In this document: piece after piece, positions 1,273 to 17,719 of the stretch
Position numbering within the stretch: position 1 is the stretch's first letter
How the letters are laid out: each line of letters begins with the position of its first letter
Assembly (NCBI GenBank): GCA_947494995.1
Contig: CANLWY010000008.1
Coordinates: 1 to 64,000 of the forward strand
Source of the DNA: an uncultured Campylobacterales bacterium
GTDB taxonomy: Bacteria > Campylobacterota > Campylobacteria > Campylobacterales > Arcobacteraceae
Direction of reading: 5' to 3'
Length of the DNA: 64,000 bases
Translations under genes and position numbers: made by a program
Notes under the pieces: model-generated
Told to the model about the DNA's origin: nothing
The model's database searches: none
The model's input: the letters and a program-made list of their open reading frames with translations, nothing else

Positions 1273-2031
1273 TTATAAAAGTTCAATTTTATACCCTGTA
1301 TTATTTTGGTTCACGATTAAATCTTTATGAATTTTCCCTCTTAATCTAAATAATAATGACCTAAATGCAGCATATCCTGCAGGTTCATCTTGCCATATTG
1401 CATATTCTAATTGTTCTTGGGATATATTATGCCCAGGTGAGGTACATAATAATTTTATGATCTTAATTTCTTTTGATGTTAACTTTACAGGTTCATTTCC
1501 ATAATATAAAACCTCTTTCTCTTTATCAAATAAATATCCAAATTTTAATCTTACTGTTCTAGATTTTTCTTCAGTGTTAATTGATAGTTTGTGCTCTAAA
1601 GTTTTATTGATATTTTGGACTGCGTTTAGTTCCTGAGATTTGAGACTATCCTCTTCTGCTTTTTTTAAGGCTACTTCAATGGCTGCTTGTAATATATTTT
1701 TTTTGTAAGGTTTTAATATATATCCATAAGCAAAGGCTTCTGAAGCTTCTTTAATTGTTGCAAGTTCAGAGTTTGCAGTTAAAAATATTATAGGAGTATT
1801 AGGAATAATTGTTTTTAATTCCTTTGCTAATACTATACCTGTAGTAGAACCTTTTAAATAAATATCCATTAAAATTAAATCAGGAATAATTCCTTTTTCT
1901 AAAATTTTTAATGTCTTACACTTATTTGGTGCAATTCCACAAGGTTCATAACCTAATTCAATTAGTGTTTCTTTTAAATTTAAAGCTATAATTGATTCAT
2001 CTTCAACAATTAGAATTTTTGTTTTATTCAT
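1273..2031 (-). CDS. Response regulator with REC and OmpR-type winged-helix domains
   Basis: 252 residues. The receiver domain (about 5-120) has acidic pair E10/D11, phospho-acceptor D56 in LILMDIYL, T85 and K107 in YILKPYKK. A helical, probably coiled linker (about 120-160) joins it to a Trans_reg_C-type winged helix (about 165-252, with VKLTSKEIKIIKLL and the recognition region ending GYKIELL). The start ATG has AAAGGAG upstream and overlaps the kinase stop by 8 bases, so the pair is translationally coupled. It lies between three promoters that carry an 11-bp direct repeat, the kind of site such domains bind, and is the obvious candidate regulator of the phenol operon. That link is inferred. 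Confidence 0.92.
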   Translation of the reverse strand: MNKTKILIVEDESIIALNLKETLIELGYEPCGIAPNKCKTLKILEKGIIPDLILMDIYLKGSTTGIVLAKELKTIIPNTPIIFLTANSELATIKEASEAFAYGYILKPYKKNILQAAIEVALKKAEEDSLKSQELNAVQNINKTLEHKLSINTEEKSRTVRLKFGYLFDKEKEVLYYGNEPVKLTSKEIKIIKLLCTSPGHNISQEQLEYAIWQDEPAGYAAFRSLLFRLRGKIHKDLIVNQNNTGYKIELL

Positions 2032-3325
2032 AGTTATTCTCCTTTTGAGGAAATTTTATATTACATTCTAATCCATTATTATTACAAAATTCAATTTCAC
2101 CATCAAGTTGATCTTCTACAATTGAATGAATTAATTGCATACCAATTGATTCACTCTTATATAAAGAATTGATATTTTCCATACCCTTTCCATTGTCTCT
2201 TATTTTTAATAATACAAAATTATCGATTATTTTCATATGAATACATAAAAGATTATCACGATCTTCACTAAATGCATATTTAAAGGCATTAACACAAAGT
2301 TCGTGTAAAACCATACCTAGTTGAATACATCTATTTGTAGAAAAAATTAGTTTATCTATATGTAAATCAGTATTAAGTTTTGTATTTTGAGAAATGTATA
2401 AATCTTTTATATCTTCTACAAGCTTTTTAATATAATCAGGAAGATTGATATATGCTAAATTTTCACCTAGATATAAAAATTCATGAACTAAAGCCATTGT
2501 ATGAATTCTACTTCTGCTTTGTTTCATTGTATCTCTTAATTCATTATCTTCACTTCTTCTTGCTTGCATATTTAATAAAGAAGAGATTATTTCCATATTA
2601 TTTTTAACTCGATGATGTATCTCTTTTAATAAAATTTCTTTCTCATCAATTGATTTTTGAAGTTCTCTATTCATTGTTGTGATACTATTTCTATATTCAA
2701 GTCTTTGTGTCATGTCTCTTCCAAATGCACAAATATAATCTTTCCCTCCATATATAAATCCATGTCCAGATACTTCAACTGGAATAATAGTACCATCTTT
2801 CTTCCTTTGAGTAGTTTCTAATCTCCAGTTTTTGGTATTTTTTATTTCTAGCATACAAACTTGAGCAGAGTTTCTATCAAAATTTGGATCCATATCTTCT
2901 AAATCCATATCTAACATTTCTTCTTTTGTATATCCTAGTGTATTACAAGCTGCTTGATTTACATAAACAAATTTTGCATCAAGTGTAAACCAATATATTT
3001 GATCAACAGAATTATCTAAAGCAAATTCGTATGGCGCTAATCTATCTTTATCTTTTTGTTTTAGTTCATTATATGATTTTTCTATTTTTGAAATCACTTT
3101 TTGCATATGATTGACAATTATATATAGAATCACTCCAATAGATATTATAAATAATATAACAAAAGTGATTGGACCTTGGTTTGCAATATCATTATTTTCA
3201 AAAAATATCTTAATTAACTTGTCTAAAAGAATGACACCAATAATACCTGTAAAAATAAAAGTTAGAGAGAATCTTTTTGCAATTTTTCTACTATTAAAAA
3301 AATATGTTTTAAATATATGGTTCAA
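2024..3325 (-). CDS. Membrane sensor histidine kinase, PAS plus HisKA_2 type
   Basis: 433 residues. Two transmembrane segments (about 21-42 and 52-72) enclose a very short outside loop, so sensing is probably cytoplasmic or in the membrane. A PAS domain with PAC motif follows (about 95-210), then a HisKA_2 dimerisation helix with ILLKEIHHRVKNN (phospho-His H237 or H238) and an HATPase domain (LHELCVNAFKYAF; DNGKGM). The start is TTG with AAAAGG 7 bases upstream, and TATAAT (3360-3355) gives a plausible promoter. Divergent from the phenol hydroxylase operon. The PAS domain could sense an aromatic or redox state; the ligand is unknown. Confidence 0.92.
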   Translation of the reverse strand: MNHIFKTYFFNSRKIAKRFSLTFIFTGIIGVILLDKLIKIFFENNDIANQGPITFVILFIISIGVILYIIVNHMQKVISKIEKSYNELKQKDKDRLAPYEFALDNSVDQIYWFTLDAKFVYVNQAACNTLGYTKEEMLDMDLEDMDPNFDRNSAQVCMLEIKNTKNWRLETTQRKKDGTIIPVEVSGHGFIYGGKDYICAFGRDMTQRLEYRNSITTMNRELQKSIDEKEILLKEIHHRVKNNMEIISSLLNMQARRSEDNELRDTMKQSRSRIHTMALVHEFLYLGENLAYINLPDYIKKLVEDIKDLYISQNTKLNTDLHIDKLIFSTNRCIQLGMVLHELCVNAFKYAFSEDRDNLLCIHMKIIDNFVLLKIRDNGKGMENINSLYKSESIGMQLIHSIVEDQLDGEIEFCNNNGLECNIKFPQKENNYE

Positions 3326-3388
3326 ATAAATACCTTTTTATCACTATTTATAAAATTATATCATAAAGAAAAAAATGAAATTAATACT

Positions 3389-3420
3389 GCGATTAATTCG
3401 CGAATATTTTTTATTAAACT
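3389..3420 (+). promoter_or_regulatory. Direct-repeat operator plus -10 of the phenol hydroxylase operon (box B)
   Basis: GCGATT (3389-3394), 5 bases, GCGAAT (3400-3405), then 9 bases, then TAAACT (3415-3420) as a weak -10. A start of transcription near 3427 would leave about a 65-base leader before dmpK. The half-site spacing (11 bp), the orientation and the 9-base distance to the -10 are the same as in boxes A1 and C. There is no sigma-54 type -24/-12 element visible, unlike the DmpR-driven Po promoter of Pseudomonas. Confidence 0.65.
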
Positions 3421-3492: not shown

Positions 3493-3759
3493 ATGGGGAA
3501 TGAGTTAGTTACAAATTTTGATAAGTTCGTTCATATTACAAATCAAACAAAAAATGGGTTAGTAGAGTTTGATTTTTCAGTTGGGGATCCAACAATGTAT
3601 CTTGAACTTGCTTTACCAGTAATACAATTTGAGGATTTTTGTAATAAAAATGGTGTTAAGTATTTAACTAAACAACAAGAAGTTGATGTAGAAAACGATA
3701 GACATAAATGGAAGTATGGTGAAGTTGGAACATTAAAGTATGAAAAGGAGCAAGAATAA
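3493..3759 (+). CDS. dmpK: Phenol hydroxylase assembly subunit DmpK-type (P0)
   Basis: 88 residues from ATG 3493, chosen because GAAAGG lies just upstream; an in-frame TTG at 3433 would start almost at the predicted transcription start. In the dmp system DmpK is not needed for turnover but helps load iron into the hydroxylase. Motifs include FVHITNQTKNGLVEFDFSVGDP and YLELALPVIQFEDFC, typical of the family. The stop overlaps the next start by one base (TAATG), giving coupling to dmpL. First gene of the operon. Confidence 0.88.
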   Translation: MGNELVTNFDKFVHITNQTKNGLVEFDFSVGDPTMYLELALPVIQFEDFCNKNGVKYLTKQQEVDVENDRHKWKYGEVGTLKYEKEQE

Positions 3760-4754
3760 TGACACTAGACATAAAAAGTATAGATATACAACCTAAAAGA
3801 GAGACCTTTGGTCATGTTGCAAGGCGTATTGGAGAAGGTAAGGCTGCAACTAGATATGAAGAAGCAACATATGACTTACAATCAACACATAACTTTCATT
3901 ATAGACCAACATATAACCCTAAGTATGAGCTATATGATACTAATAAAACAGCTATTAAAATGGAAGATTGGTATAAATTCTTAGACCCAAGGCAGTATTA
4001 TTATTCAAATTATGTAATGACTAGAGCAAAACAACAAGAAGTAGCAGAACAAAACTTTACTTTTATAGAGAAAAGAGACCTTCTTTCTGTAATGCCAGAA
4101 GATGTAAAAAATGAAATTTTAAATCATGTTTTGCCTTTAAGACATTATGAATGGGGAGCTAATATGAATAATCTTCAATTAGTTTCTGAATCATATGGTG
4201 CAGCTTTTGCAAGTGCTGCTATGTTCAATGCTGAAGATAGATTAGGTAATGCTCAATATATTACTAGAATAGGTCTTATGATTTCTGAAAATGAAACAGA
4301 TGTTTTAGATAGTTCAAAAGAAGCATGGTTAAATGATTCATCATGGCAACCATTAAGAAAAGTAATTGAAGATTCATTTATTTTAGAAGATTGGTTTGAG
4401 TTACATATGGTTCAAAATATAATTATGGATGGGTTTATTCACCCACTATTCTTTAATGTTTATGAACAAGAGTTAAATGCAAGAGGTGGAACTGCACAAG
4501 GAATGATGACTGAATTTATTACAACTTGGTATGAAGAATCATCTAAATGGACTGATAAAACTATTGAAATTGCAGCATCTGAATCAGAAGAAAATACTCA
4601 ATTATTATCTTCTTGGGCAACAAAATATATTGCAGTTATGGAAGAAACAACTTTAGCCTTAGCAAAAAATATTGTTGATAATCCTACTTCAACGGTTGCA
4701 ACAATAAAAGAAAATTTAATTAATCGTTTAAATAAAAACGGTCTAAAAGTATAG
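3759..4754 (+). CDS. dmpL: Phenol hydroxylase beta subunit DmpL-type (P1)
   Basis: 331 residues, the usual length for the beta subunit of the multicomponent phenol hydroxylase. It forms the (alpha beta gamma)2 hydroxylase with the dmpN and dmpO products. Recognised by the N-terminal TFGHVARRIG and DLQSTHNFHYRPTYNP and the ferritin-like helical body with FLDPRQYYYSNYV. Like other beta subunits it keeps the fold but not the full iron ligand set. Between dmpK (one-base overlap) and dmpM (8 bases). Confidence 0.95.
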   Translation: MTLDIKSIDIQPKRETFGHVARRIGEGKAATRYEEATYDLQSTHNFHYRPTYNPKYELYDTNKTAIKMEDWYKFLDPRQYYYSNYVMTRAKQQEVAEQNFTFIEKRDLLSVMPEDVKNEILNHVLPLRHYEWGANMNNLQLVSESYGAAFASAAMFNAEDRLGNAQYITRIGLMISENETDVLDSSKEAWLNDSSWQPLRKVIEDSFILEDWFELHMVQNIIMDGFIHPLFFNVYEQELNARGGTAQGMMTEFITTWYEESSKWTDKTIEIAASESEENTQLLSSWATKYIAVMEETTLALAKNIVDNPTSTVATIKENLINRLNKNGLKV

Positions 4755-4762
4755 GAGATATT

Positions 4763-5038
4763 ATGTCACAAAATAATGTAATGTTAGTTCTTCAAGCAAA
4801 TGAAGAGGCTAGACCTATGGTTGAAGCAATACAAAAAGATAACCAAGATGCAATCGTTGAAACTCAACCTGCAATGATAAAAATTACATCTCCTGGAAAA
4901 TTAGTTATAAAAGCTGAAACTATGGAAGAGATTATTGGACGGGAATGGGATCCTCAAGAACTTCAACTTGTTTTGATTTCACTTGCAGGTAATGTTGATG
5001 AAGATTATGATCATTTTACAATATATTGGGATAATTAG
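4763..5038 (+). CDS. dmpM: Phenol hydroxylase regulatory (effector) protein DmpM-type (P2)
   Basis: 91 residues, the size of the cofactorless MmoB/DmpM effector proteins. These dock on the hydroxylase alpha subunit and gate oxygen activation. VMLVLQANEEARPMVEAIQ at the start and REWDPQELQLVLISLAGNVDEDYDHF near the middle to end are characteristic. ATG with GGAG spaced 6 bases. Within the operon between beta and alpha subunit genes, the conserved position. Confidence 0.94.
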   Translation: MSQNNVMLVLQANEEARPMVEAIQKDNQDAIVETQPAMIKITSPGKLVIKAETMEEIIGREWDPQELQLVLISLAGNVDEDYDHFTIYWDN

Positions 5039-5047
5039 GAGCAAATA

Positions 5048-6568
5048 ATGACTATGAATACTAAAAAAAGAAAAAAACGTTTAAATATGAAAGAAAAGTA
5101 TAAGCATATGACAAGACTTGGCTGGGATACTACTTATCAAGATATGGATAAAGTTTTCCCTTATGATAGTTTTGAAGGTATTAAAATTCATGATTGGGAA
5201 GCATGGGAAGACCCTTTTAGAATGACAATGGATGCTTATTGGAAGTACCAAGGTGAAAAAGATAAAAAACTATATGCAATTATTGATGCTTTTGCTCAAA
5301 ATAATGCTCAAAAAAATATTACAGATGCAAGATATGTATCTGCCCTAAAGCTATTTTTAACAGGTGTTTCACCATTAGAGTACCAAGCTCATAGAGGTTT
5401 TGCTCATGTTGCAAGGAATTTTAGAGGTGATGGTCCAAGAGTAGCATGTCAAATGCAAGCAATTGATGAACTAAGACATGTACAAACACAAATACATACT
5501 TTAAGTCACTATAACAAACACTTTAATGGGTTTTCGGAATTTGCACATTGGCATGATAGAGTTTGGTATCTTTCTGTTCCTAAATCATTTTTTGATGATG
5601 CAAGAACTGCTGGACCATTTGAGTTTATGATTGCAATTGGATTCTCATTTGAATATGTGTTAACAAATCTTTTATTTGTACCATTTATGTCTGGTGCAGC
5701 TTATAATGGGGATATGGCAACTGTTACATTTGGATTTTCTGCACAATCTGATGAAGCTAGACATATGACTCTAGGTCTTCAAGCTATTAAATTTATGTTA
5801 GAACAAGACCCTGCGAATGTTCCTATTGTTCAAGGTTGGATTGATAAATGGACTTGGAGAGGATATAAGGTTCTTGGTCTTGTATCTATGATGATGGATT
5901 ATATGCTTCCAGAATCTCCACAGTCTTGGAAAGAAGCATGGGAATTATACTTTGAAGAAAATACAGTTGCTTTATTTAAAGACTTAGAGAGATATGGAAT
6001 TAAAGTTCCTGATTGTGCTGGTACAGTAAGTGCTGAAAAAGATCACTTATCTCACCAAATTTGGATGACATTTTATACACATGCAGCTGCAGCTCCTTTC
6101 CATACTTGGTTACCAGATGAAAAGAAAATGGATTGGTTAAGTGAAAAATATCCAGATACTTTTGATAAGTATTATAGGCCAGTATATGAACATTGGGCTA
6201 AATTAGAAAAAGAGGGTAAGAGATATTATTCAGAGATGTTACCACAGCTTTGTCAAACGTGTCAGATACCAATGTTATATACAGAGATTGAAAAAGGTGA
6301 ACCAACACAAATTGCTCATAGACAAACAACATTTAATGGAGAGAGATTCCATTTTTGTTCTGATCATTGTAAAGATATTTTTGAGAATGAACCTGAAAAA
6401 TATACACATGCGTGGATGCCTGTTCAGCAAATATTTCAAGGAAATTGTGGTGGAGCTACACTTCCAGAAGTATTAGATTGGTATAAAGTAAAATTTGGTA
6501 CAGACAATTTAGATTATGTAGGGTCTGAAGATGAGGCTACGTGGAAAAAATGGCACGGGCAAGTATAA
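5048..6568 (+). CDS. dmpN: Phenol hydroxylase alpha subunit DmpN-type (P3), di-iron monooxygenase
   Basis: 506 residues. This is the catalytic subunit that converts phenol to catechol with O2. The di-iron ligands are all present: E111 (PLEYQAH), E141 and H144 (DELRH), E202 (FSFEYVL), E236 and H239 (SDEARH). A YHS metal-binding domain follows near the C-terminus (CQTC about residue 400, then FNGERFHFCSDHCKDIF), as in Pseudomonas DmpN. The start chosen has GGAG 8 bases upstream; a second in-frame ATG is at residue 3. Substrate could include cresols or other phenols; phenol is the family default. Confidence 0.97.
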   Translation: MTMNTKKRKKRLNMKEKYKHMTRLGWDTTYQDMDKVFPYDSFEGIKIHDWEAWEDPFRMTMDAYWKYQGEKDKKLYAIIDAFAQNNAQKNITDARYVSALKLFLTGVSPLEYQAHRGFAHVARNFRGDGPRVACQMQAIDELRHVQTQIHTLSHYNKHFNGFSEFAHWHDRVWYLSVPKSFFDDARTAGPFEFMIAIGFSFEYVLTNLLFVPFMSGAAYNGDMATVTFGFSAQSDEARHMTLGLQAIKFMLEQDPANVPIVQGWIDKWTWRGYKVLGLVSMMMDYMLPESPQSWKEAWELYFEENTVALFKDLERYGIKVPDCAGTVSAEKDHLSHQIWMTFYTHAAAAPFHTWLPDEKKMDWLSEKYPDTFDKYYRPVYEHWAKLEKEGKRYYSEMLPQLCQTCQIPMLYTEIEKGEPTQIAHRQTTFNGERFHFCSDHCKDIFENEPEKYTHAWMPVQQIFQGNCGGATLPEVLDWYKVKFGTDNLDYVGSEDEATWKKWHGQV

Positions 6569-6577
6569 GGAGATATT

Positions 6578-6940
6578 ATGGCAGTTAAATCAATAGGGAA
6601 ATATGAAGCAAAAATGATGGATAGAGTTGAGAATTTCCATGGTAATCAACTAGTTTATATTGGTTGGGATAAACATAGACTTATTAATTCAGCTATGGGC
6701 TTTCCTTTACCTCCACAAATGCCATTTAGTGCATTGTTAAGTGATGTGATGCCAATGTGTTATAAAGATCATCCAGATTTTGAACAAGTTGTTTGGGATG
6801 ACTCAGTTATATGGAATTTAAATGGGGAAGCTTTTACTCCTGATGTAACTAAGTCTTTAGAGGAAAATGGGATAGATCATAAATCTATCTTAAGATTTGA
6901 AACACCAAATCTTACAGGATTAAACGGAGTAGGAATGTGA
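6578..6940 (+). CDS. dmpO: Phenol hydroxylase gamma subunit DmpO-type (P4)
   Basis: 120 residues, matching the small gamma subunit of the phenol hydroxylase. Typical stretches are FHGNQLVYIGWDKHRL, AMGFPLPPQMPF and VIWNLNGEAFTPD. It completes the hydroxylase hexamer with the dmpL and dmpN products. GGAG precedes the ATG by 6 bases. The stop codon overlaps the GTG start of dmpP by 4 bases. Confidence 0.95.
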   Translation: MAVKSIGKYEAKMMDRVENFHGNQLVYIGWDKHRLINSAMGFPLPPQMPFSALLSDVMPMCYKDHPDFEQVVWDDSVIWNLNGEAFTPDVTKSLEENGIDHKSILRFETPNLTGLNGVGM

Positions 6941-7995
6941 GTTATAAAGTTGAAATTGAACCAACTGGTGATGTAATTGAGGTTCAAGATGGTCAAACCA
7001 TTCTTGATGCCGCATTAAGACAAGGTGTCTATATCCCACATGCGTGTTCACATGGTTTATGTGGAACATGTAAGGTTGAAATTTTAGAAGGAGAAGTAGA
7101 CTATGGTGCTGCTTCACCTTTTGCTTTAATGGATATGGAGAAAGATGAAGGGAAATGTTTAGCTTGTACAGCAACACCAATGGAAGATTGTGCAATTGAA
7201 GCTGACATTGATGAAGAACCAGATGCTAGAACAATTCCTGTTAAGGACTTTATGGGGACAGTTGTTGATGTAAAAGACCTAACACCTAGAATTAAAGGTA
7301 TTTTTATTGAATTAGATGAAGAAATTGATTTTCAAGCAGGTCAATATATTCAATACTATGTTCCTGGTTTTGAAGAACCAAGAGCATTCTCTTTATGTAA
7401 TTCATCGAATAATAAAAAAATTGTTGAGTTAAATATTGCATTAATTCCAGATGGAGAAGCAACGCCTTGGATACATAAAAATGTGAAAGTTGGTGCTAGA
7501 AGGAAAATTGCTGGTCCTTATGGAAGGTTTTTTGTAAGAGAATCAGCTAATAAACCAATGATTTTCTTTGCAGGTGGTTCTGGACTTTCTAGTCCAAAAT
7601 CAATGATTCTAGAACAACTAGAAAATGGGAATACTCAAGCAATACATCTATTCCATGGAGCTAGAAACCAAGAAGAACTTTATTATTCAGATATGTTTAA
7701 AAAATTAGCTGAAGAATATGAAAACTTTACATATGTTCCTGTGTTATCTGATACTGGTTTAGAAAACTGGGATGGAAAAACTGGTTTTGTAAATGATGCT
7801 GCAAATGAGATTTTTGAAAATGATTTCTCTGGTACTAAAGCATACTTATGTGGTCCTCCTCCAATGATTGATGCGTGTATTACAACATTAATGAGAGGAA
7901 GACTTTTTGATAGAGATATTTACACAGAAAAGTTTTTTTCAAAAGCAGACTTAAATAATACTAGTGTACAAAGTCCTCTTTTTAAGTCAATATAG
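6937..7995 (+). CDS. dmpP: Phenol hydroxylase reductase DmpP-type (P5)
   Basis: 352 residues with a GTG start overlapping the dmpO stop. An N-terminal plant-type [2Fe-2S] domain has C37, C42, C45 and C77 (SHGLCGTC, CLAC). An FAD domain follows with RAFSLCNSS and GPYGRFF, then an NAD(P)H domain with GGSGLSSPKSM and CGPPPMID. It passes electrons from NADH to the di-iron hydroxylase. Domain order and length are those of DmpP. Confidence 0.96.
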   Translation: MSYKVEIEPTGDVIEVQDGQTILDAALRQGVYIPHACSHGLCGTCKVEILEGEVDYGAASPFALMDMEKDEGKCLACTATPMEDCAIEADIDEEPDARTIPVKDFMGTVVDVKDLTPRIKGIFIELDEEIDFQAGQYIQYYVPGFEEPRAFSLCNSSNNKKIVELNIALIPDGEATPWIHKNVKVGARRKIAGPYGRFFVRESANKPMIFFAGGSGLSSPKSMILEQLENGNTQAIHLFHGARNQEELYYSDMFKKLAEEYENFTYVPVLSDTGLENWDGKTGFVNDAANEIFENDFSGTKAYLCGPPPMIDACITTLMRGRLFDRDIYTEKFFSKADLNNTSVQSPLFKSI

Positions 7996-8004
7996 GTTTT
8001 TTCA

Positions 8005-8337
8005 ATGAGTGAAAAACAATTCTTATTGACAATGGAAGGTTCTAATAAAGAGATTATTGGGATAGAGGATAAACACATTTTAGATTCAATGTTGGCTATT
8101 GGGATAGATGTGGCTCCAAAAGGTTGTCATGGCGGTGGTTGTGGGGTTTGTAAAATCAAAATAACAAAAGGGGAAGTGACTACTTTATCACAAAGTAGAA
8201 AATTCTTATCCAAGGAAGAAGAAGAGAATGGTTATGTGCTTGCATGTAGAGCTTTTCCAGTTTCAGATATTGAATTTGAATTTATTGGAAAGCCAAAATG
8301 TAAAGTTAATGAAAAGAAAAAGTATGGATTTGTATAA
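8005..8337 (+). CDS. dmpQ: XylT/DmpQ-type [2Fe-2S] ferredoxin
   Basis: 110 residues with a plant-type cluster: C41, C46, C49 and C81 ([16 protein letters not shown]). In dmp and xyl operons this ferredoxin sits just before the catechol 2,3-dioxygenase gene and re-reduces its oxidised Fe(III) when the enzyme is inactivated by substituted catechols. Position here is identical. The ribosome site is weak (gene follows dmpP by 9 bases with only T-rich sequence), which fits a low-abundance rescue protein. Confidence 0.92.
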
Positions 8338-8354
8338 AAAATAAGGAGTTAAAA

Positions 8355-9299
8355 ATGGGAATTATGAGAATAGGACATATTGATATAAACGTAATTGATA
8401 TTGATGTATCAAAATTATACTATACAAAAGTTATGGATATGAGAATCACTCATGAAGATGAGGATGGAAAAGTCTATTTAAAATGTTGGGATGAATGGGA
8501 TAAGTATTCAGTTGTTTTAACTCCTAGTGATAGTGCTGGGATGAATAATATTGCATATAAAGTTGAAAAAGACTCAGATTTAGATGATTTAAAAGCAAAA
8601 TTAGAAGCATATGGTATTACTGTAAATGATAGAGCTAAAAATGAAGTGATTTTTTGTGGAAGAACATTAACTTTTAATCTTCCTTCTGGCCATGAAATGA
8701 TTCTTTACTCTCAAAAAGATTTTGTAGGTAAAAATGTTGGAACTGAAAATCCTGAGCCGTGGCCTGATGGCTTAACTGGTGTTGGTGCTCATTGGCTAGA
8801 TCATGCTCTTTTAATGTGTGAATTAGATCCTGAAAATGGGGTAAATAAAGTTGCTGAAAATACTAAACTTATGGAAGAAGTATTTGAAATGAAACTTGCA
8901 GAACAAGTGATGGTTGGACCAAATGGTGATGTTCAACTAGCAACTTGGTTGAGTGCTGGAAATACTCCTCATGATATTGCATTTGTTGGAGGTCCAGAAA
9001 TGGGATTACACCATTTTGCATTCTTCTTAGATGATTGGGCAGACATTTTAAAAGCAGCAGATGTTTTATCTAAAAATGATGTCAAAGTTGATGTTACACC
9101 ACAAAGACATGGAATTACAAGAGGAAATACTATTTATTTCTTTGATCCATCAGGAAATAGAAATGAAACTTTTGCTGGATTAGGATACGCCGTTTATCCA
9201 GATATGCCAACAATTACTTGGACAGAAGATAAGTTATGGAAAGGTATTTTTTATCATACTGCACAGCCAGTTGAATCTTTTACAACTGTTTATACGTAG
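8355..9299 (+). CDS. dmpB: Catechol 2,3-dioxygenase (extradiol, type I)
   Basis: 314 residues, two vicinal-oxygen-chelate domains, close in length to DmpB/XylE. It opens catechol to 2-hydroxymuconic semialdehyde. Iron ligands are visible: H150 (HWLDHALL), H219 or H220 (GLHHFAFF) and E271 (NRNETFAG). [14 protein letters not shown] is the family signature. AAGGAG precedes the ATG. It follows the ferredoxin and starts the lower pathway. Confidence 0.97.
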
Positions 9300-9307
9300 G
9301 ACTTATA

Positions 9308-9724
9308 ATGAATATTATAAAAAGTAACAATCTTTCATTACAAGCAGCTCTGACTGCTTGTAATGAAGCTATAAAAAAAGCAGATGAATTAAATATTAAA
9401 ATCAATGTTAGTGTTTGTGATAGTGCTGGATTAGAACTAGCTTTTTTAAGAATGAATGGTTCATATATTCACTCAATAAATATAGCTAAAGATAAGGCTT
9501 TTACTAGTGCTAGTTTTGGGTTTAGTTCTGGAACATGGACAAATATTTTTAAGGAAGCTTCGCACTTGGAGCAAGGGTTTTCTAATAGAGATAGACTTAT
9601 ACCTTTTGGTGGAGGTTTACCTATTATCTATGAAGATGGACTTGTAGGTGCTATTGGGGTTTCTGGGGGAACAGAAGAAGAAGATATTATTTGTGCGCAA
9701 GCAGGAATAGACAAAATAATATAA
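9308..9724 (+). CDS. GlcG/HbpS-family protein
   Basis: 138 residues of the GlcG/HbpS family: CDSAGLELAFLRMNGSYIHSI, DKAFTSASF and the C-terminal GAIGVSGGTEEEDIICAQAG. Members bind haem or small molecules; their role is not settled. Similar genes are common directly after catechol 2,3-dioxygenase in meta-cleavage operons. No signal peptide is seen, so it is probably cytoplasmic. Spaced 8 bases after the dioxygenase gene. Confidence 0.88.
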   Translation: MNIIKSNNLSLQAALTACNEAIKKADELNIKINVSVCDSAGLELAFLRMNGSYIHSINIAKDKAFTSASFGFSSGTWTNIFKEASHLEQGFSNRDRLIPFGGGLPIIYEDGLVGAIGVSGGTEEEDIICAQAGIDKII

Positions 9725-9743
9725 ATAAAATTTAGGAAAGCAT

Positions 9744-11201
9744 ATGAAAAAAGTACAACACTATATAAATGGAAAATTTGTAGATTCACAATGTGGTGAA
9801 TTTTTTGATAACTATAACCCCGCAACAAATGAGTTGATATCAAAAGTAGCTCTTGGACGGGAATATGAAGTAAATGCCGCAGTTGGGGCTGCAAGGAAAG
9901 CATTAACTGGTGAATGGGGGCAAATGAAGTTAAATGACAGAATTGCTTTAATGTATGAAATTGCAAATGAGATGGATAAAAGGTTTGATGATTTCTTAGA
10001 AGCAGAAACTCTTGATACAGGTAAACCATACTCTATTGCAAGACATATTGATATTCCAAGGGGAGCTGCAAACTTCAAAGTATTTGCAGACACGATGAAA
10101 TCAGTAGCTGATGAAGCATATAGAATGGATACTCCAGATGGTAAAACTGCAATGAATTATTCAATGAGACAGCCAAAAGGTGTTATTTCTGTTATCTCAC
10201 CTTGGAACTTACCTCTTCTTTTAATGACTTGGAAAGTTGGTCCAGCTTTGGCTTGTGGTAATACAGTAATTGTTAAACCATCACAAGTAACACCAACAAC
10301 AACATCCCTTTTAGGTGAAGTTATGTCTAAAGTTGGAATTCCTGATGGAGTTTATAATGTGGTACAAGGGAAAGGATCTATTACTGGTAATTTAATCACT
10401 GCTCATAAAGGTATTGATGCTATTACTTTTACAGGTGAGACTGTAACTGGTGAAAAGATTATGAAAGAGTGTTCTGTTGGTGTAAGAGATGTATCTTTAG
10501 AACTTGGTGGTAAAAATCCTGCAATTATTTTTGAAGATTGTGATATGGATAAAGCAATTACAGAGACAACAAAATCAGCCTTTGCAAATTCTGGACAAGT
10601 GTGTTTAGGTACAGAAAGAGTTTATGTACAAAGACCAATTTTCGATGAATTTGTTAGTAAATTAAAAGAGTCTGCTAAAAATTTAAAACTTGGAGTTCAA
10701 AATGATGAATCATCAGATATGGGTCCACTAGTAAGTGCATCACATAGGGATAAAGTTTTATCTTATTATGAAACAGCAGTTGCGGAAGGTGCAAATGTAG
10801 TTTTAGGAGGAGGGTCTCCTACTATGACTGGTAATTTAAAAGATGGTTATTGGGTTGAACCAACAATTTGGACAGGCTTAAGTGAAGACGCTACTGTAGT
10901 AAAAGAGGAAGTATTTGGACCTTGTTGTCATATTCAACCATTTGATACAGAAGAGGAAGTTATAAAAATGGCAAATAATTCGCCATATGGTTTAGCTTCT
11001 ACAGTATTTACTGAAAACCTAGATAAAGCTCATAGAGTTGCAGGGCAGATTGATTCAGGAATTGTATGGATAAACTCGTGGTTTTTAAGAGATTTAAGAA
11101 CACCGTTTGGTGGAATGAAAGGTTCAGGAATTGGACGTGAGGGTGGACACCATTCTCTTGAGTTCTATACAGAGCTAAAAAATGTATGTATAAAAATGTA
11201 A
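9744..11201 (+). CDS. dmpC: 2-hydroxymuconic semialdehyde dehydrogenase
   Basis: 485 residues, aldehyde dehydrogenase superfamily. It oxidises the ring-cleavage product to 4-oxalocrotonate with NAD, opening the oxalocrotonate branch. Catalytic C287 (NSGQVCLGTERV), general base E253 (SLELGGKNP) and N155 (SPWNLP) are present. The operon position after the ring-cleavage enzyme supports this substrate over generic aldehydes. ATG with AGGAAAG upstream. Confidence 0.95.
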   Translation: MKKVQHYINGKFVDSQCGEFFDNYNPATNELISKVALGREYEVNAAVGAARKALTGEWGQMKLNDRIALMYEIANEMDKRFDDFLEAETLDTGKPYSIARHIDIPRGAANFKVFADTMKSVADEAYRMDTPDGKTAMNYSMRQPKGVISVISPWNLPLLLMTWKVGPALACGNTVIVKPSQVTPTTTSLLGEVMSKVGIPDGVYNVVQGKGSITGNLITAHKGIDAITFTGETVTGEKIMKECSVGVRDVSLELGGKNPAIIFEDCDMDKAITETTKSAFANSGQVCLGTERVYVQRPIFDEFVSKLKESAKNLKLGVQNDESSDMGPLVSASHRDKVLSYYETAVAEGANVVLGGGSPTMTGNLKDGYWVEPTIWTGLSEDATVVKEEVFGPCCHIQPFDTEEEVIKMANNSPYGLASTVFTENLDKAHRVAGQIDSGIVWINSWFLRDLRTPFGGMKGSGIGREGGHHSLEFYTELKNVCIKM

Positions 11202-11208
11202 GGACAAA

Positions 11209-12000
11209 ATGATGGAAAAAGCAAAAATTGAAAAATATGGTAATGAATTATATGAAGCTTTAAAATCTAATACAGCAATTGAACCTATTACTTCAAGAGA
11301 GTTGGACATTACAATTGAGGATGCCTATGCAATTCAAGATGTGTTTATTAAAAGAAGAATAAAAGATGACGGTGTTAAAGTTATTGGTAAAAAAATTGGT
11401 GTTACATCAAAAGTTGTAATGGAAATGTTAGGTGTTCATCAGCCAGATTTTGGATACCTTTTATCTGATATGATTTATTCTGATGGTGATGAAATTGATG
11501 TAAGTAATAAGATGATTCAACCAAAAGCAGAAGGTGAAATTGCCTTTGTTCTAAAAGAAGATTTAATGGGACCTGGAATTACAACTGCTGATGTTTTAAA
11601 AGCAACAAAATTTGTTATGCCTTGTTTTGAAATTGTTGATTCAAGAATTAAAGATTGGAAAATAAAAGTACAAGATACAGTTGCAGATAATGCTTCTTGT
11701 GGATATATAGTATTTGGAGGACAAGGTGTTAATCCAAGAGATGTTGATTTGACAACTTGTGGGTTAACATTAGAGGCTAATGGAGAATTACTGCATACAG
11801 GAGCTGGTGCTGCTGCATTAGGAAGTCCTGTAAATGCAGTTGCATGGCTTGCAAATACTCTAGGCTCTTTTGGAGTTGGTTTAAAAGCTGGTGAGGTAAT
11901 ACTTTCAGGAGCTTTATGTGCAATGGTTACAATTAAACCAAATGATAATATGACTATCAATGTAGGTGGAATTGGTTCCGCTTCTTGTAGATTTGTATAG
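11209..12000 (+). CDS. dmpE: 2-oxopent-4-enoate (2-hydroxypenta-2,4-dienoate) hydratase
   Basis: 263 residues of the hydratase/decarboxylase (fumarylacetoacetase-like) family. It hydrates 2-hydroxypentadienoate to 4-hydroxy-2-oxovalerate with a divalent metal. It is the hydratase rather than its paralogue dmpH, because [18 protein letters not shown] and [17 protein letters not shown] match DmpE from memory. Metal-site region [14 protein letters not shown] is intact. Two Met codons start it (MMEK); either is possible. Followed by dmpF, as in dmp. Confidence 0.94.
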
Positions 12001-12017
12001 ATAATAAAGGAATAATT

Positions 12018-12902
12018 ATGAAAATTAACTGTGCATTAATTGGATCTGGAAATATTGGAACAGATTTAATGTATAAACTTCAAAGAAGTGAGATTTTAAA
12101 CCCATTATGGATGGTAGGAATTGATCCAGAATCAGATGGATTATTAAAAGCAAAAGAAGCCGGAATGAAAATTACTTCTGATGGTGTAGATGGATTATTA
12201 GAACATATTGAAGATGATGGAGTAATGATTGCTTTTGATGCAACATCAGCTTATGTTCATGGTGAGAATAATAAAAAATTAAAAGAAAAAGGTGTTATGG
12301 TAATTGATTTAACACCTGCCGCAATTGGGCCATTTTGTGTTCCTTCTGTAAATATGAAAGAGTTGCTTTCTAAAAAAGAACAAAATGTAAATATGGTTAC
12401 ATGTGGAGGGCAAGCTACTATTCCAATGGTAGCAGCTGTTTCTTCAGTTCAAGCTGTTGAATATGGTGAAATTGTTGCTACAGTTGCTTCTAAATCGGCA
12501 GGTCCTGGAACTAGAGCAAATATTGATGAGTTTACAGAAACTACTAAACTAGGTATAGAAAAAGTTGGTGGAGCAAAACTTGGTAAAGCAATTATTATTT
12601 TAAACCCAGCAGAACCACCTTTAATGATGAGAGATACAGTTCACTGTTTAACAGTTGATGATCCAGATGAAGAAGCTATTACAAAATCTGTAAATGAGAT
12701 GATAAGTGAAGTTCAAAAGTTTGTACCAGGATATAAGTTAAAAAATGGTCCAGTATTTGATGGGAAAAAAGTATCTATCTTTTTAGAAGTTGAAGGGTTA
12801 GGAGATTACTTACCCAAATATGCAGGTAATCTAGACATCATCACAGCTGCAGCAACAAATATTGCAGAGCAAATGGCTGAACAAATAAAAGCAGGAGCAT
12901 AA
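12018..12902 (+). CDS. dmpF: Acetaldehyde dehydrogenase (acylating)
   Basis: 294 residues. It turns acetaldehyde, channelled from the DmpG aldolase, into acetyl-CoA with NAD and CoA. Rossmann motif GSGNIGTD (residues 9-16) and catalytic Cys C129 in [11 protein letters not shown] are present. The 294-residue length is a little below the Pseudomonas enzyme. dmpG starts 2 bases after its stop, matching the tight DmpFG complex. AAAGGAA precedes the ATG. Confidence 0.96.
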
Positions 12903-12904
12903 TT

Positions 12905-13933
12905 ATGGATTTAAGAGGAAAAAAAGTAACTCTTCATGATATGTCATTAAGAGATGGAATGCATTCTATAAGACATCAATTTACTTTAGAACAAATGAAA
13001 ACGATGTCTATGGCTATGGATGAAGCAGGTGTTCCTATGATTGAAGTGACTCATGGAGATGGCTTAGGTGGAACTTCACTTAATTATGGGTTTGGTTTAC
13101 ATAGTGATGAAGAATGGTTAGATGCTGTTGTTCCTAATATAAAACAAACAAAAGTATCTGCTCTTTTACTTCCTGGTATTGGAATTGTAAAAGATTTAGA
13201 ACGTGCAGTTGAGCATGGAATATCAACTGTTAGAGTTGCTACACATTGTACTGAAGCTGATTGTTCTCAACAACATATTACTAAAGCTAAAGAGATAGGA
13301 TTAGATACAGTTGGTTTTTTAATGATGGCTCATATGGTTGATGAAAAAAGAATTGTTGAAGAAGCTAGAAAAATGGTTTCATATGGAGCAAACTGTATTT
13401 ATGCAACTGATTCTGCAGGATATATGTTACCTGATATGATTAGTGCAAGAATAGGGGCTTTGAAAAAAGAGTTTGGAGATGAAATTGAAATTGGATTTCA
13501 CGGTCATAATAATATGTCTATGGGTGTTGCTAATTCTCTGGCTGCAATTGAATCAGGTGCAACTAGAATCGATGCTTCATTAGCAGGATTTGGAGCAGGT
13601 TCTGGAAATACAGCAATGGAAGTACTAGTAGCTGTTTTAAATAGAATGGGTGTTGAAACTGGAATTGACTTAAATAAAATTGAAGATGCAGCAGAAGATA
13701 TTGCTCTTCCAATTATGGGGAAACCTACAAGAATTTCTAGAGATTCTTTAACTCTTGGATATGCAGGTGTATATTCTTCTTTTTTACTTTTTGCACGTCG
13801 TGCTGAAGCAAAATATGGAATAGATACAAGAACTATCTTAGAAGAATTAGGTCGAAGAGGAACTGTTGGTGGTCAAGAAGATATGATTGAAGATTTAGCA
13901 TTGGATATGGCAAAAAAACAAGGATTAATATAA
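12905..13933 (+). CDS. dmpG: 4-hydroxy-2-oxovalerate aldolase
   Basis: 342 residues, HMGL-type TIM barrel plus C-terminal domain that docks DmpF. It splits 4-hydroxy-2-oxovalerate to pyruvate and acetaldehyde. Active-site residues R16, D17 and H20 ([13 protein letters not shown]) and the metal-binding GFHGHNN are present. The stop shares one base with the next start (TAATG). Partner of the preceding gene. Confidence 0.97.
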
Positions 13934-14721
13934 TGGCATTAGATCAAGCAACAATAGAAAAGCTAGCCAAGTATTGTGAGGATGCTGAGGTTCAAGCTTA
14001 TGAGATTACAAAAATCACTGATGATTATCCAGAAATGACATATGAAGATGCATATGATATCCAATGGAAAGCAAGAGCAAATAAAGAAGCTAGAGGTACT
14101 AAAATTGTTGGCATGAAAATGGGACTAACTTCTCAAGCTAAAATGAAACAAATGGGAGTTGAAAACCCTTGTTATGGATATTTAGCAGATTATTTTGCTT
14201 ATGGTGATGGAGCAGAAATTAAAATTGATGAATTAATTCATCCTAAAGTAGAAGCAGAAATCGCATTTATTTTAAAAGATGACTTAACAGGTCCAGGATG
14301 TCACATTGGTGATGTTTTAGCTGCTACTGATTTTGTTATGCCTGCAGTTGAAATTATTGATTCACGATATAAAGATTTTAAATTTGATTTAAAATCAGTT
14401 ATTGCTGATAACTCTTCATCTTCTAGATATGTAACTGGTGGAAGAATGAGAGATATAAAAGAGCTAGATTTAAAAACTTTAGGTGTCGTTATGGAAATAA
14501 ATGGTGAAGTTGTACAGCTTGGAGCTGGAGCAGCTGTTCTTGGTCATCCTGCAACATCAATTGCAATGTTAGCAAATATGATGGGTGAAAGAGGTGAAGT
14601 TTTAAAAGCTGGTACTTACATTCTTTCAGGTGCAATTACTGCAGCTGTTGGAGTTAAAAAGGGTGATAATGTAACTGTTAAATTTCAAGACCTAGGTTGT
14701 TTAACAATGAAATTTGTATAA
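13933..14721 (+). CDS. dmpH: 4-oxalocrotonate (2-oxo-3-hexenedioate) decarboxylase
   Basis: 262 residues, same fold as dmpE. It removes CO2 from the tautomerised oxalocrotonate, giving 2-hydroxypentadienoate for the hydratase. KITDDYPEMTYEDAYDIQW, MKMGLTSQAKMKQMGVE, IDSRYKDFKFDLKSVIADN and the terminal LGCLTMKFV match DmpH rather than DmpE. DmpE and DmpH are known to work as a complex. One-base overlap with dmpG, 9 bases before the tautomerase. Confidence 0.95.
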   Translation: MALDQATIEKLAKYCEDAEVQAYEITKITDDYPEMTYEDAYDIQWKARANKEARGTKIVGMKMGLTSQAKMKQMGVENPCYGYLADYFAYGDGAEIKIDELIHPKVEAEIAFILKDDLTGPGCHIGDVLAATDFVMPAVEIIDSRYKDFKFDLKSVIADNSSSSRYVTGGRMRDIKELDLKTLGVVMEINGEVVQLGAGAAVLGHPATSIAMLANMMGERGEVLKAGTYILSGAITAAVGVKKGDNVTVKFQDLGCLTMKFV

Positions 14722-14730
14722 AGGATTTAT

Positions 14731-14922
14731 ATGCCAATTGCAACAATTAATATTATGGAAGGTCGATCTGATGAAAAAAAAGAAGATCTTATCAATAAAG
14801 TTACTCTAGCTATAAATGAAGCAATAGATGCTCCTGTTGAATCAATAAGAGTGATATTAAATGAAATGCCAAAACAGCATTATGGAATAGCAGGTAAAAG
14901 TATAAAAAAATTAGGCAAATAA
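14731..14922 (+). CDS. dmpI: 4-oxalocrotonate tautomerase
   Basis: 63 residues. It isomerises the enol form of 2-oxohexenedioate before decarboxylation. After Met removal the catalytic Pro1 is exposed, and R11 (EGRSDEKKE) and R39 (ESIRVILNEM) are both present, so it should be active. AAGGA precedes the ATG. The last enzyme of the oxalocrotonate branch; the flavin monooxygenase gene begins 1 base after its stop codon. Confidence 0.96.
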   Translation: MPIATINIMEGRSDEKKEDLINKVTLAINEAIDAPVESIRVILNEMPKQHYGIAGKSIKKLGK

Positions 14923-14923
14923 A

Positions 14924-15949
14924 ATGTCAAAATTAAAATTAAGTGTATTGGATCAGTCTCCAATACACGATGGAAAAGATGATAAAGAAGGACTTCTTGA
15001 TACTATAAAGTTAGCTAAAAAATGTGAATCTTTAGGATATCATAGATATTGGTTAGCGGAACATCATAATACTCCTGGTTATGCTTCTTCAAATCCTGAA
15101 GTTATGGTAAATATTGTGGCTTCAAATACAAATAAAATAAGAGTTGGTAGTGGTGGTGTTATGCTTAATCATTATAGTTCTTTTAAAGTTGCTGAAACTT
15201 TTAATACTTTAGAAGCTTTATATTCTAATAGAATTGATGTAGGAATAGGCCGTGCAACTGGAGCAAACTTTTTAACTGCAAGAGCTTTACATGAACAAAA
15301 CGGAAATGAATATTCACAAAAAGCATATGAATTAATTGGTTATTTAAATCAGAATTTATCAAAAGAACATCCTTATCATAATGTTACCTTAACTCCTCAA
15401 AATATAAAACCTCCTCCTGTATATCTTTTGGGTTCAAGTGAGTCTAGTTCAACACTAGCAGGTATTTTAGGTGCAGGTTTTGTATTAGCACTATTTATAG
15501 GAACTCACAATAGAAGTACAAAAATTATAAAAGATTATAAAAAAAGTTTTGTAGCTACAAATGTATTAAAAAAACCAAAAGCAATTTTGGCAGTAGCATG
15601 TATTGTGGGGGATACCATTGAAGAAGCACAATTTATTGCAAGTACACATACATATTGGAAATTACAAGCATTTACCCGACCAAATCGTGATGCTTTGTTA
15701 AGTCCCAATGATTTAAAAAGTGTTATAGAAAACTTATCTCCAAGTGATAAAAAATATTATGATGAGACTATGAATACTATGATTTTGGGTACTGCACATA
15801 GTTGCAAGAAACAGATTGAGATGTTAGCTTTAGAATATGATGTTGATGAAGTTATGATAGTAAATGTTACATATTCATTTCAAGATAGAATCAATACCTA
15901 TGAAGCATTATCAAGAGTATTTGATTTAAATAAAAATAATAAAATATAA
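14924..15949 (+). CDS. Luciferase-like (LLM class) flavin-dependent oxidoreductase
   Basis: 341 residues, MsnO8-like branch of the bacterial luciferase family: LSVLDQSPI at the N-terminus, ESLGYHRYWLAEHHN, GSGGVMLNHYSSFKVAE and IDVGIGRATG. Such enzymes use FMNH2 or F420. It sits inside the meta-cleavage operon between dmpI and dmpD, only one base after dmpI, so it is certainly co-transcribed. This enzyme is not part of the classical dmp or xyl pathway. Its substrate is unknown; it could act on a substituted aromatic or protect against an aldehyde. Confidence 0.9.
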   Translation: MSKLKLSVLDQSPIHDGKDDKEGLLDTIKLAKKCESLGYHRYWLAEHHNTPGYASSNPEVMVNIVASNTNKIRVGSGGVMLNHYSSFKVAETFNTLEALYSNRIDVGIGRATGANFLTARALHEQNGNEYSQKAYELIGYLNQNLSKEHPYHNVTLTPQNIKPPPVYLLGSSESSSTLAGILGAGFVLALFIGTHNRSTKIIKDYKKSFVATNVLKKPKAILAVACIVGDTIEEAQFIASTHTYWKLQAFTRPNRDALLSPNDLKSVIENLSPSDKKYYDETMNTMILGTAHSCKKQIEMLALEYDVDEVMIVNVTYSFQDRINTYEALSRVFDLNKNNKI

Positions 15950-15958
15950 AGGAATAAA

Positions 15959-16777
15959 ATGGAAAATCAAGAAATAGCAAACAGTATTAAAACAGGGAGT
16001 TTTAAAACAAATTATCATGATTTAGGTAGTGGTGAACCAGTAATATTTATTCATGGTTCTGGTCCAGGTGTTTCAGCTTTTGCAAACTGGAGATTATGTA
16101 TGCCAGAAATATCTAAAAACTTTAGAGTGATAGCTCCTGATATGGCGGGGTTTGGTTTTACAGATAGAACACCTGGGCTAGCATATAATATGGATATTTG
16201 GGTAAAGCAGATTATAGATTTAATGAATGCTTTAGATATAAAAAAGACAAATCTTGTAGGTAATTCGTTTGGTGGAGCATTAGCCTTGTCTTTAACAATC
16301 AAATATCCTGAAAGATTTGATAAAATAGTACTTATGGGAGCTATGGGTGTTGAGTTTGAATTAACAGCAGGACTTGATCAGGCTTGGGGATATACTCCTA
16401 GTTTGGAGAATATGAGGTCTTTACTTGATACTTTTGCATATAGTAGAGTTTTAGTAACAGATGAGTTGGCTAAATTAAGATATGACGCTAGTATAAGACC
16501 TGGTTTTCAAGAATCTTTTGCTTCAATGTTCCCTAGTCCTAGGCAAGAGTCAGTTAGTTTAATGGCAAGTAATGAAGAAGATATTAAAAAAATAGATAAA
16601 AATGTTTTAATTATTCATGGTAGAGATGATAAAGTTATTCCTTTTGAAAACTCAATTAGGTTACATAATTTAATTACTAAATCTCAATTGCATGGATTTG
16701 GAGAATGTGGACATTGGAGTCAAATTGAACATAAAGATAGATTTAATAAAATTGTAGAAGATTTTTTAATGGAGTAA
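15959..16777 (+). CDS. dmpD: 2-hydroxymuconic semialdehyde hydrolase
   Basis: 272-residue alpha/beta hydrolase. It cleaves the ring-fission product (or its keto form from methylcatechols) to 2-hydroxypentadienoate and formate or acetate. HGSGPGVSAFANW (oxyanion region, about 32-44), nucleophile S103 in GNSFGG, Asp in IIHGRDDKVIP and His in ECGHWSQIEH form the triad. Its operon place differs from Pseudomonas, where it follows dmpC. AAAGGAAT precedes the ATG. Confidence 0.95.
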   Translation: MENQEIANSIKTGSFKTNYHDLGSGEPVIFIHGSGPGVSAFANWRLCMPEISKNFRVIAPDMAGFGFTDRTPGLAYNMDIWVKQIIDLMNALDIKKTNLVGNSFGGALALSLTIKYPERFDKIVLMGAMGVEFELTAGLDQAWGYTPSLENMRSLLDTFAYSRVLVTDELAKLRYDASIRPGFQESFASMFPSPRQESVSLMASNEEDIKKIDKNVLIIHGRDDKVIPFENSIRLHNLITKSQLHGFGECGHWSQIEHKDRFNKIVEDFLME

Positions 16778-16780
16778 AAT

Positions 16781-17719
16781 ATGAATTATATTATTTTGGG
16801 TGCAGGTGGGATAGGTTCCTATTATGGTGCTAAATTATTAGAGGCAGGACATAATATAATATTTATTGCAAGAGGTAAACATTTAAAAGCGTTAAATGAA
16901 TGTGGTTTAAGTTTATCTCATCCCACATTTAGTTTTAAGAAACAGGTAATAGCTTGTAGTTTAGATGATTTAAAATTAGATAAGTTACCTAAAATAGATG
17001 CAGTAATATTAACTACAAAATCAACAACAACTTATAAAATAGCAAAATACTTATCAACTATTTTTAATGATAACTCAAAATATCCTTTTATAGTCTCTTT
17101 ACAAAATGGAGTAGAAAATGAAGATATTTTATCTAATTATTTTCCTAAAGATAATATAATAGGAGCTCTTACTAGAAAGATAGGAGCTCATATTATAAAG
17201 CCTGGTCAAGTGGAAGTTACAGGTAATGTTGAAACAATAATTGGGGCTTTAGAAAAAACTGATAAGAACAAAATATTTTTAGAAAATTTTTCATCTGATG
17301 TTAAAAAATCTGGTATTTTATGTGAAATCACAGAAAATATAAGACTGGAATTATGGAAAAAGTTAATTATTAATAATGGTGTAAATGCAATGTGTGCACT
17401 TCTCGAAATTGAAACGGGGGTATTAATGCATGATAAAAGCTTATCACGCATTGTTTATGGATTAATGCAAGAAACAGCTAATGCAGCAAAAGCTATTAAT
17501 ATAATAATTAAAAAAGAAGATGTTGATTCAATGTTTGAATTGATAAGAAATTTTGATTCAATTAAACCTTCAATGCTTGTAGATAAAGAGTTTAACAGAG
17601 CTCTAGAAATTGATGAAATATGTGGTGTTGTTATAAAGTATAATGAAGTTCAAGGAATGGATGCTCCATATACTAGAACAGTATCTAGTATATTGGACTT
17701 TGTATACAATTTAAAATAA
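16781..17719 (+). CDS. PanE/ApbA-family ketopantoate-reductase-like protein
   Basis: 312 residues. Rossmann motif GAGGIGSYYGAKLLEAGHN at the N-terminus, VILTTKSTTTY and VSLQNGVENED, and a C-terminal domain with LWKKLIINNGVNAMCAL, the PanE pattern. It is the last gene of the operon, 3 bases after dmpD, and is followed by a terminator. PanE proper reduces 2-dehydropantoate; in this setting a 2-oxo acid of the aromatic pathway is an alternative, which is inference. Confidence 0.87.
   Translation: MNYIILGAGGIGSYYGAKLLEAGHNIIFIARGKHLKALNECGLSLSHPTFSFKKQVIACSLDDLKLDKLPKIDAVILTTKSTTTYKIAKYLSTIFNDNSKYPFIVSLQNGVENEDILSNYFPKDNIIGALTRKIGAHIIKPGQVEVTGNVETIIGALEKTDKNKIFLENFSSDVKKSGILCEITENIRLELWKKLIINNGVNAMCALLEIETGVLMHDKSLSRIVYGLMQETANAAKAINIIIKKEDVDSMFELIRNFDSIKPSMLVDKEFNRALEIDEICGVVIKYNEVQGMDAPYTRTVSSILDFVYNLK

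Follow-up and report, generated by a model that had tools for sequence, protein, structure and literature searches.

The window analysed here is a stretch of 64,000 bases (C8:1-64000) from a genome of 3,167,823 bases, assembled in 31 contigs and 99.99% complete. It contains dmpKLMNOP, with all six subunit genes of a multicomponent phenol hydroxylase in order and each recognised by its Pfam domain (Table 1). The top PDB match of DmpN is the phenol hydroxylase component phN (2inn, E-value = 3.2e-237). In a set of the best 80 of 391 dmpN loci, the nearest named ones carry the label Arcobacter, and the genome is assigned to Arcobacteraceae on these grounds. The ATG at 3493, preceded by AGAAAGG, is a more likely start of dmpK than the TTG of the open reading frame list (judged by eye). 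Downstream co-oriented genes include, after a ferredoxin gene, C23O-like, ALDH-like and further genes, named by appearance, which we take to be of the meta-cleavage type. An HbpS-like protein, recognised by Pfam, is encoded at 9308-9724 between the C23O-like and ALDH-like genes, and such a protein is also found within the C23O operons of relatives. The porin-like protein encoded beyond these genes has no Pfam match and was named by its appearance. Between the SDR and regulator genes, positions 900-1270 resemble a gene remnant by eye.

Table 1. Features of the window, with positions, strand and basis of assignment
Feature	Position	Strand	Basis or remark
OmpR/PhoB-type response regulator	1273..2031	-	ORF and Pfam; 252 aa
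PAS/HisKA_2 sensor kinase	2024..3325	-	ORF and Pfam; 433 aa
Putative extended -10 TGATATAAT of the kinase-regulator operon	3355..3363	-	TGnTAnAAT
Proposed regulator box GCGA-N7-GCGA, direct repeat with 11-bp period	3389..3403	+	Alignment, pattern counts
Proposed -10 hexamer TAAACT of the dmpK promoter	3415..3420	+	11 nt after the second GCGA
dmpK (Phenol_hyd_sub)	3493..3759	+	Start in ORF list: TTG 3433
dmpLMNOP, multicomponent phenol hydroxylase	3759..7995	+	Pfam domains, PDB match
Downstream co-oriented genes	8005..17719	+	Ferredoxin and HbpS-like by Pfam; C23O-like, ALDH-like, others
Porin-like protein, 395 aa	17754..18941	-	Downstream of the second strict box
Second strict box with -10	19037..19068	-	Before the porin-like gene

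Divergently from dmpK lie the genes of a sensor kinase and a response regulator, whose reading frames share eight bases (2024-2031); the coordinates thus bear out both the overlap and the orientation described in the initial annotation. The kinase combines a PAS_9 domain (about residues 101-207) with a HisKA_2 domain (PF07568, E-value = 1.6e-26) that carries the H-box EIHHRVKNN from residue 235, invariant in 10/10 sequences, and is followed by a HATPase_c match of 25.3 bits, just below the cut-off of 26.4; these features place it among the HisKA_2 sensor kinases. Its two hydrophobic segments, at about residues 19-42 and 51-72, are separated by a short stretch. Since the segments lie so close together, the PAS domain, which would be cytoplasmic by the predicted topology, is by this reading the sole recognised sensor domain. 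The regulator consists of Response_reg and Trans_reg_C domains. It has EDE at residues 10-12, a putative phosphoacceptor Asp 56, FLTA at 83-86, Lys 107 and a winged-helix output domain, as expected of an OmpR/PhoB-type protein; against the PhoB model TIGR02154 it scores 67.8 bits, the cut-off being 296.2. The H-box and N-box of the kinase and the receiver Asp and Lys of the regulator are all present. The initial annotation regarded the pairing of a HisKA_2 kinase with an OmpR-type partner as unusual, which does not hold for the source genome: 6/6 of the HisKA_2 kinases found there adjoin a regulator with Response_reg and Trans_reg_C domains.

Distribution of the pair and of its promoter box

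Among 104 Arcobacteraceae genomes, the kinase was found in 24 (E-value ≤ 1e-80, with the best 16 first-look candidates scored per genome), and so was DmpO (PF04663). The two sets are identical, comprising the same 24 genomes (hereafter carriers) from 6 of 20 genera, with a patchy distribution within genera; under independence, and with the kinship of the genomes ignored, the probability of such a match is 4.3e-24. The kinase gene is divergent from dmpK in 22/24 carriers. In the other two, G041 and G042, the pair is located instead behind secretion genes of the ABC and HlyD types, which were scanned in G042 only. In G034, the kinase beside dmpK is broken into two frames, and contig ends cut the pair in G093 and G095. 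Nine genomes encode a second copy of the pair at a C23O operon, with boxes. A third copy in G061 (L172 7191-9316) lies near OprD-, MFS- and BenE-type transport genes; the box at this locus has a 10-nt spacing, faces away from the kinase and has no clear target gene.

The box was first spotted by side-by-side reading of the intergenic regions. It is a direct repeat of GCGA that occupies the -35 position of the dmpK promoter, and there is no -35 element as such. The interval marked in the initial annotation (1273-3420) happens to stop at the last base of the proposed -10 hexamer. In its strict form, GCGA-N7-GCGA-N11-TANNNT, the box occurs 59 times in 36 loci (634,574 bases) but not once in any of 10 Markov-1 simulations, the loci being homologous and the counts therefore not independent. 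When the -10 element was not demanded, GCGA-Nk-GCGA was found 67 times at k=7 and 0 or 1 times at each other k from 0 to 25 (30 loci). TANNNT follows at offset 11 in 59 of these 67 double sites (the next-best offset has 15) and AATAAT at the same offset in 6 further ones, leaving two with neither. The AATAAT sites (L157 6416 and 6472, L158 6472, L163 6128 and 13371, L165 14628) mostly adjoin the second pair and transport-type genes. On the kinase side, the putative extended -10 element is found in the window as well as in 22/22 of the relatives' regions examined, and its conservation suggests that the pair may be expressed at a basal level.

A box precedes dmpK in 25/25 operons of the 24 carriers; those of G041 and G042 are among them, and there the regulator would have to act on it in trans. 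Genome-wide, there are 96 strict boxes in the 24 carriers (2-7 each) vs 14 in 11 of 80 non-carriers, counts that retain chance-like matches such as G093:C94 within the 96 and, judged by eye, those of nine non-carriers within the 14 (G037, G038, G040, G043, G071, G072, G085, G092 and G102). The reversed pattern, used as a control, occurs 8 times in all 104 genomes, with three of these matches in a carrier. The source genome has exactly two strict boxes, one before dmpK (3389-3420) and one before the porin-like gene, and none was found in the loci of its five other HisKA_2 kinases. Homologues of the porin-like gene likewise follow a box in several relatives. Relatives' boxes also precede the Ldh-like/ferredoxin/C23O operon, an SDR gene, other porin-like genes, a chemotaxis receptor gene (L161) and a second aromatic-monooxygenase gene set (L168). 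Among the non-carriers, G011 and G017 possess box-like promoters even though no kinase was matched in them. G011 contributes 3 of the 14 non-carrier boxes, one of them about 80 bases before a regulator gene (L232 8250-8945) that covers residues 58-252 only and is 77% identical to the regulator of the window; neither a kinase nor DmpO was found in this genome, and the locus is a remnant of the two-component system. In G017, the box precedes a porin-like gene at a contig end.

More distant relatives were collected by a class-wide kinase search in 397 genomes drawn from a larger group (E-value ≤ 1e-70), in which the best 4 candidates were scored per genome, so that distant kinases may be missed. 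The kinase was found in at least 16 of the 397 genomes, and 10 of these encode distant versions (36-48% identity). Nine of the ten distant pairs adjoin a gene for a flavoprotein of the p-cresol methylhydroxylase/vanillyl-alcohol oxidase family, and the tenth (L223) adjoins a dmp operon. The flavoprotein of L224 matches PDB entry 1dii with an E-value of 2.6e-203; five of the others are 68-99% identical to it and three only 32-33%. An FAD_binding_4 domain was present in all five flavoproteins scanned, and a small CxxCH protein is encoded adjacently in 9/9 loci. Three guesses that genes beside distant pairs were transporter-like turned out to be wrong when Pfam and PDB comparisons identified an FAD-linked oxidase. 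The same promoter geometry is seen beside 10/10 distant pairs: six sites are strict, the site of L225 has one altered half-site, and those of L229-L231 have GAGA half-sites (L229 9444, L230 9120, L231 9599) that keep the 11-bp period and the 11 nt to the -10 element. A relaxed pattern with G[ACT]GA half-sites, devised after the GAGA sites had been viewed, yields 2 matches over 75,006 bases of control sequence. Where the GCGA-type regulators seen have RS in the recognition helix, the three GAGA cases show RG or RN, an observation confined to three related cases with L225 unreadable. The presence of the distant pairs beside cresol-type or dmp genes, with the same promoter geometry, suggests that the pair may respond to phenolic signals.

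Search for sigma-54-dependent control

The initial annotation proposed that the two-component system governs the operon in place of a DmpR/XylR-type activator, noting that the window has neither an NtrC-type gene nor a sigma-54 promoter. Both absences were confirmed. Among the proteins longer than 250 aa encoded in the 64 kb, none has a GA[FY]TGA-type motif. In a 430-base stretch that surrounds the start of the dmpK reading frame and extends upstream of it, the best sigma-54 promoter match is 8/10 and lies inside the kinase gene. A DmpR-like gene elsewhere in the genome, which would have spoken against the proposal, was not found either in a search for XylR_N (PF06505) that was positive in 6/6 proteobacterial control genomes with dmp operons. 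The same search gave 0/24 among the carriers and no match in G011 and G017, and a side search for PrpR_N had no match. Sigma54_activat (PF00158) has five matches in the source genome, with scores of 21.8-29.6 bits, all above the cut-off of 20.2. Four of them fall on ClpA, ClpX and (twice) ClpB; the fifth spans 43 positions and lies in a 253-aa frame that was named by no library at the thresholds used.

Neither the RpoN domain PF04552 nor the RpoN protein of G059 used as a query had a match in the source genome. We considered the possibility that RpoN had been overlooked by a single domain model, and rejected it: the second, protein-based search, which by itself would prove little, was also empty, and PF04552 is positive in 33 of the 104 Arcobacteraceae genomes. 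Arcobacter butzleri was described in 2007 as lacking RpoN and relatives of NtrC/NtrB (PMC2147049). Eight of the 24 carriers (G054, G059, G060, G061, G068, G010, G022 and G034) have rpoN, and loss of sigma-54 therefore cannot be the general cause of the regulator change. The rpoN gene of G059 (L176 8289-9536) sits among genes that by appearance resemble a nitrogen-fixation (nif) island. In Arcobacteraceae, sigma-54 may travel along with nif, which would explain the patchy presence of rpoN. In G034 (L163 14824-19348), each of the genes for the kinase, DmpN and RpoN is interrupted, through decay or assembly error. Because neither RpoN nor an XylR_N/DmpR gene was found in a genome of such completeness, control of its dmp operon by sigma-54 and DmpR is very unlikely.

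Loci outside the phylum were surveyed by means of dmpN, using the best 80 of 391 loci of named genomes, a sample that may omit the nearest records of the window. With some stretches being short, a GA[FY]TGA-type protein was found in 39/69 non-Campylobacterota loci of this sample (L015, labelled Gammaproteobacteria, being counted among them) vs 0/11 Campylobacterota loci. Upstream sites matching 9 or 10 of 10 positions of the sigma-54 consensus occur in 30 of these 39 loci, the GCGA box in none of them; some of the remaining 30 non-Campylobacterota loci have such a consensus as well. No upstream match above 8 of 10 was found for the Campylobacterota dmpK genes examined. Taken together, the comparative evidence strongly supports the idea that two-component control has replaced DmpR/XylR.

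Possible origin of the regulatory module

The kinase tree comprises 42 rows, with fragments and the split G034 copy excluded, and its long branches call for caution. Nine C23O-linked copies belong to one clade (100/99), together with the third copy of G061 and a long-branched row of G430, and nine cresol-type kinases form a separate clade (100/99). In the midpoint-rooted DmpL tree, based on 32 of the 69 non-Campylobacterota loci and 26 Campylobacterota rows, the latter constitute one clade (99/97) next to L015 and Thiothrix L050. An activator with GAFTGA is encoded at L015, whose genome also gave an XylR_N match, and a full sigma-54 consensus precedes dmpK in L050. The position of the Campylobacterota clade beside these two sigma-54-type loci fits a single change of regulator after transfer of the operon, although this direction is inferred. 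One kinase clade (G090, G054, G060, G061 and G068; 99/92) spans two different hydroxylase lineages, indicating that the structural genes and the regulator have not always travelled together.

We regard the following scenario, taken with all its parts, as reasonably probable. Campylobacterota would have their own two-component family specialised for phenolic compounds, and a single portable promoter code, G[C/A]GA-N7-G[C/A]GA-N11-TANNNT, would serve p-cresol-methylhydroxylase-like genes in several families. A phenol hydroxylase operon from DmpR/sigma-54 stock would have entered the phylum and exchanged its regulator and promoter wholesale for this module. The module would then have been duplicated for the catechol branch, and would also read boxes in trans. 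A shift of the half-site from GCGA to GAGA would have taken place in one branch, along with a change of the recognition helix from RS to RG/RN.

Proposed mechanism and known systems

The gene content, the co-occurrence, the box and its geometry were observed directly, as was the failure to find RpoN and DmpR. On this basis we consider it highly probable that the pair is a dedicated, sigma-54-independent activator of a phenol/catechol regulon. Basal expression of the kinase and regulator genes would be driven by an extended -10 promoter of their own. In the presence of a phenolic compound, the membrane-anchored kinase, most likely by means of its PAS domain, would phosphorylate the OmpR/PhoB-type regulator. 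A dimer of the latter would bind head-to-tail to the 11-bp direct repeat GCGA-N7-GCGA that replaces the -35 element, and would recruit RNA polymerase with sigma-70 to the -10 hexamer, which follows after 11 nt, presumably as a PhoB-like class II activator rather than as a repressor. The predicted targets in the source genome are dmpK onward and the porin-like gene. The ligand is the weakest step of this mechanism; phenolic compounds would fit both enzyme sets.

Several other explanations have to be considered. An activator of the DmpR/MopR type encoded elsewhere might drive the operon from a sigma-54 promoter, the pair being a neighbour with another task. Such control is common in the loci sampled outside the phylum (39/69 with the activator motif, 30/39 of these with the consensus), but the source genome lacks a detectable XylR_N or RpoN, its Sigma54_activat matches are mostly Clp proteins of at most 29.6 bits, and the Campylobacterota dmpK genes examined have no sigma-54 site above 8 of 10, which makes this explanation extremely improbable. 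It also seems improbable, if less extremely so, that the pair represses the operon and that the signal lifts the repression. A protein bound to the box, which extends over the -35 region, could obstruct the polymerase; the placement of the box in the -35 position at a fixed 11 nt from the -10 element is, however, the geometry of PhoB-type activation. The OmpR-family regulator PceP, which has direct repeats over the -35 region, is likewise argued to activate in the available text of PMC7755780. Another regulator could read the GCGA box, yet the distribution of the box follows that of the pair.

A more serious alternative, although still rather unlikely, is that the pair controls the operon in response to something other than phenolic substrates, either a cue such as the redox or respiratory state, perceived through the PAS domain, or an intermediate such as catechol. 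PAS domains often sense redox or oxygen. The ligand is unreadable from the sequence, and a paralogous pair is located at the C23O operon in nine genomes. On the other hand, the enzymes encoded near both close and distant pairs act on phenolic substrates by homology, even if three of the nine flavoproteins are distant from the one compared with PDB, and the co-occurrence of the kinase with DmpO is exact.

DmpR/sigma-54 control is classically illustrated by phenol hydroxylase operons, which also commonly supply the parts for phenol biosensors. Here, the same operon has apparently been rewired to a two-component system and a sigma-70 promoter in a genome without detected sigma-54, offering a natural test case for how a transferred catabolic operon acquires a new regulator. 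The regulon should be predictable, with two strict boxes in 3.17 Mb, and the small membrane kinase might serve as a phenol sensor in species and devices that lack sigma-54. Among the open-licence papers surveyed by title and abstract opening, we found no report of two-component control of a phenol hydroxylase operon in Campylobacterota.

The system shares with the DmpR/XylR/MopR systems of Proteobacteria the structural operon dmpKLMNOP with meta-cleavage genes and, presumably, substrate-responsive control. It differs from them in that neither RpoN, nor an XylR_N activator, nor a -24/-12 promoter was found; instead there are two proteins and a sigma-70-type promoter. In E. coli, the pho box bound by PhoB is an 11-bp direct repeat that replaces the -35 element at a fixed short distance from the -10 element. 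The repeat geometry is the same here, whereas the half-site is another one and the regulator is only distantly related. In Pseudomonas, TodS/TodT is a sensor kinase and regulator that induce an aromatic catabolic operon, and both this system and StyS/StyR consist of large soluble hybrid kinases and LuxR/FixJ-type regulators. StyS/StyR is also described, in the abstract of PMC2442086, as a sensor kinase and regulator inducing an aromatic catabolic operon. By contrast, the pair studied here consists of a small membrane HisKA_2 kinase and an OmpR-type regulator, and is associated with other operons.

A parallel from the same phylum is PceS/PceP (TCS2) of Sulfurospirillum, which is concerned with tetrachloroethene respiration. 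As far as the available text of PMC7755780 goes, its regulator is of the OmpR family, its direct repeats overlap the -35 region before a -10 element TANNAT, and the pair shows basal expression, lies beside catabolic genes and has an intergenic region in common with its divergent neighbour. The two systems are thus alike in the placement of the pair beside catabolic genes, in the regulator family and in the repeats at -35, whereas in PceS/PceP the repeat is CTATW with a 17-bp gap, against GCGA-N7-GCGA here, and the pathway is a different one. Judging from that text, PceSP is the nearest studied case that we found in the phylum.
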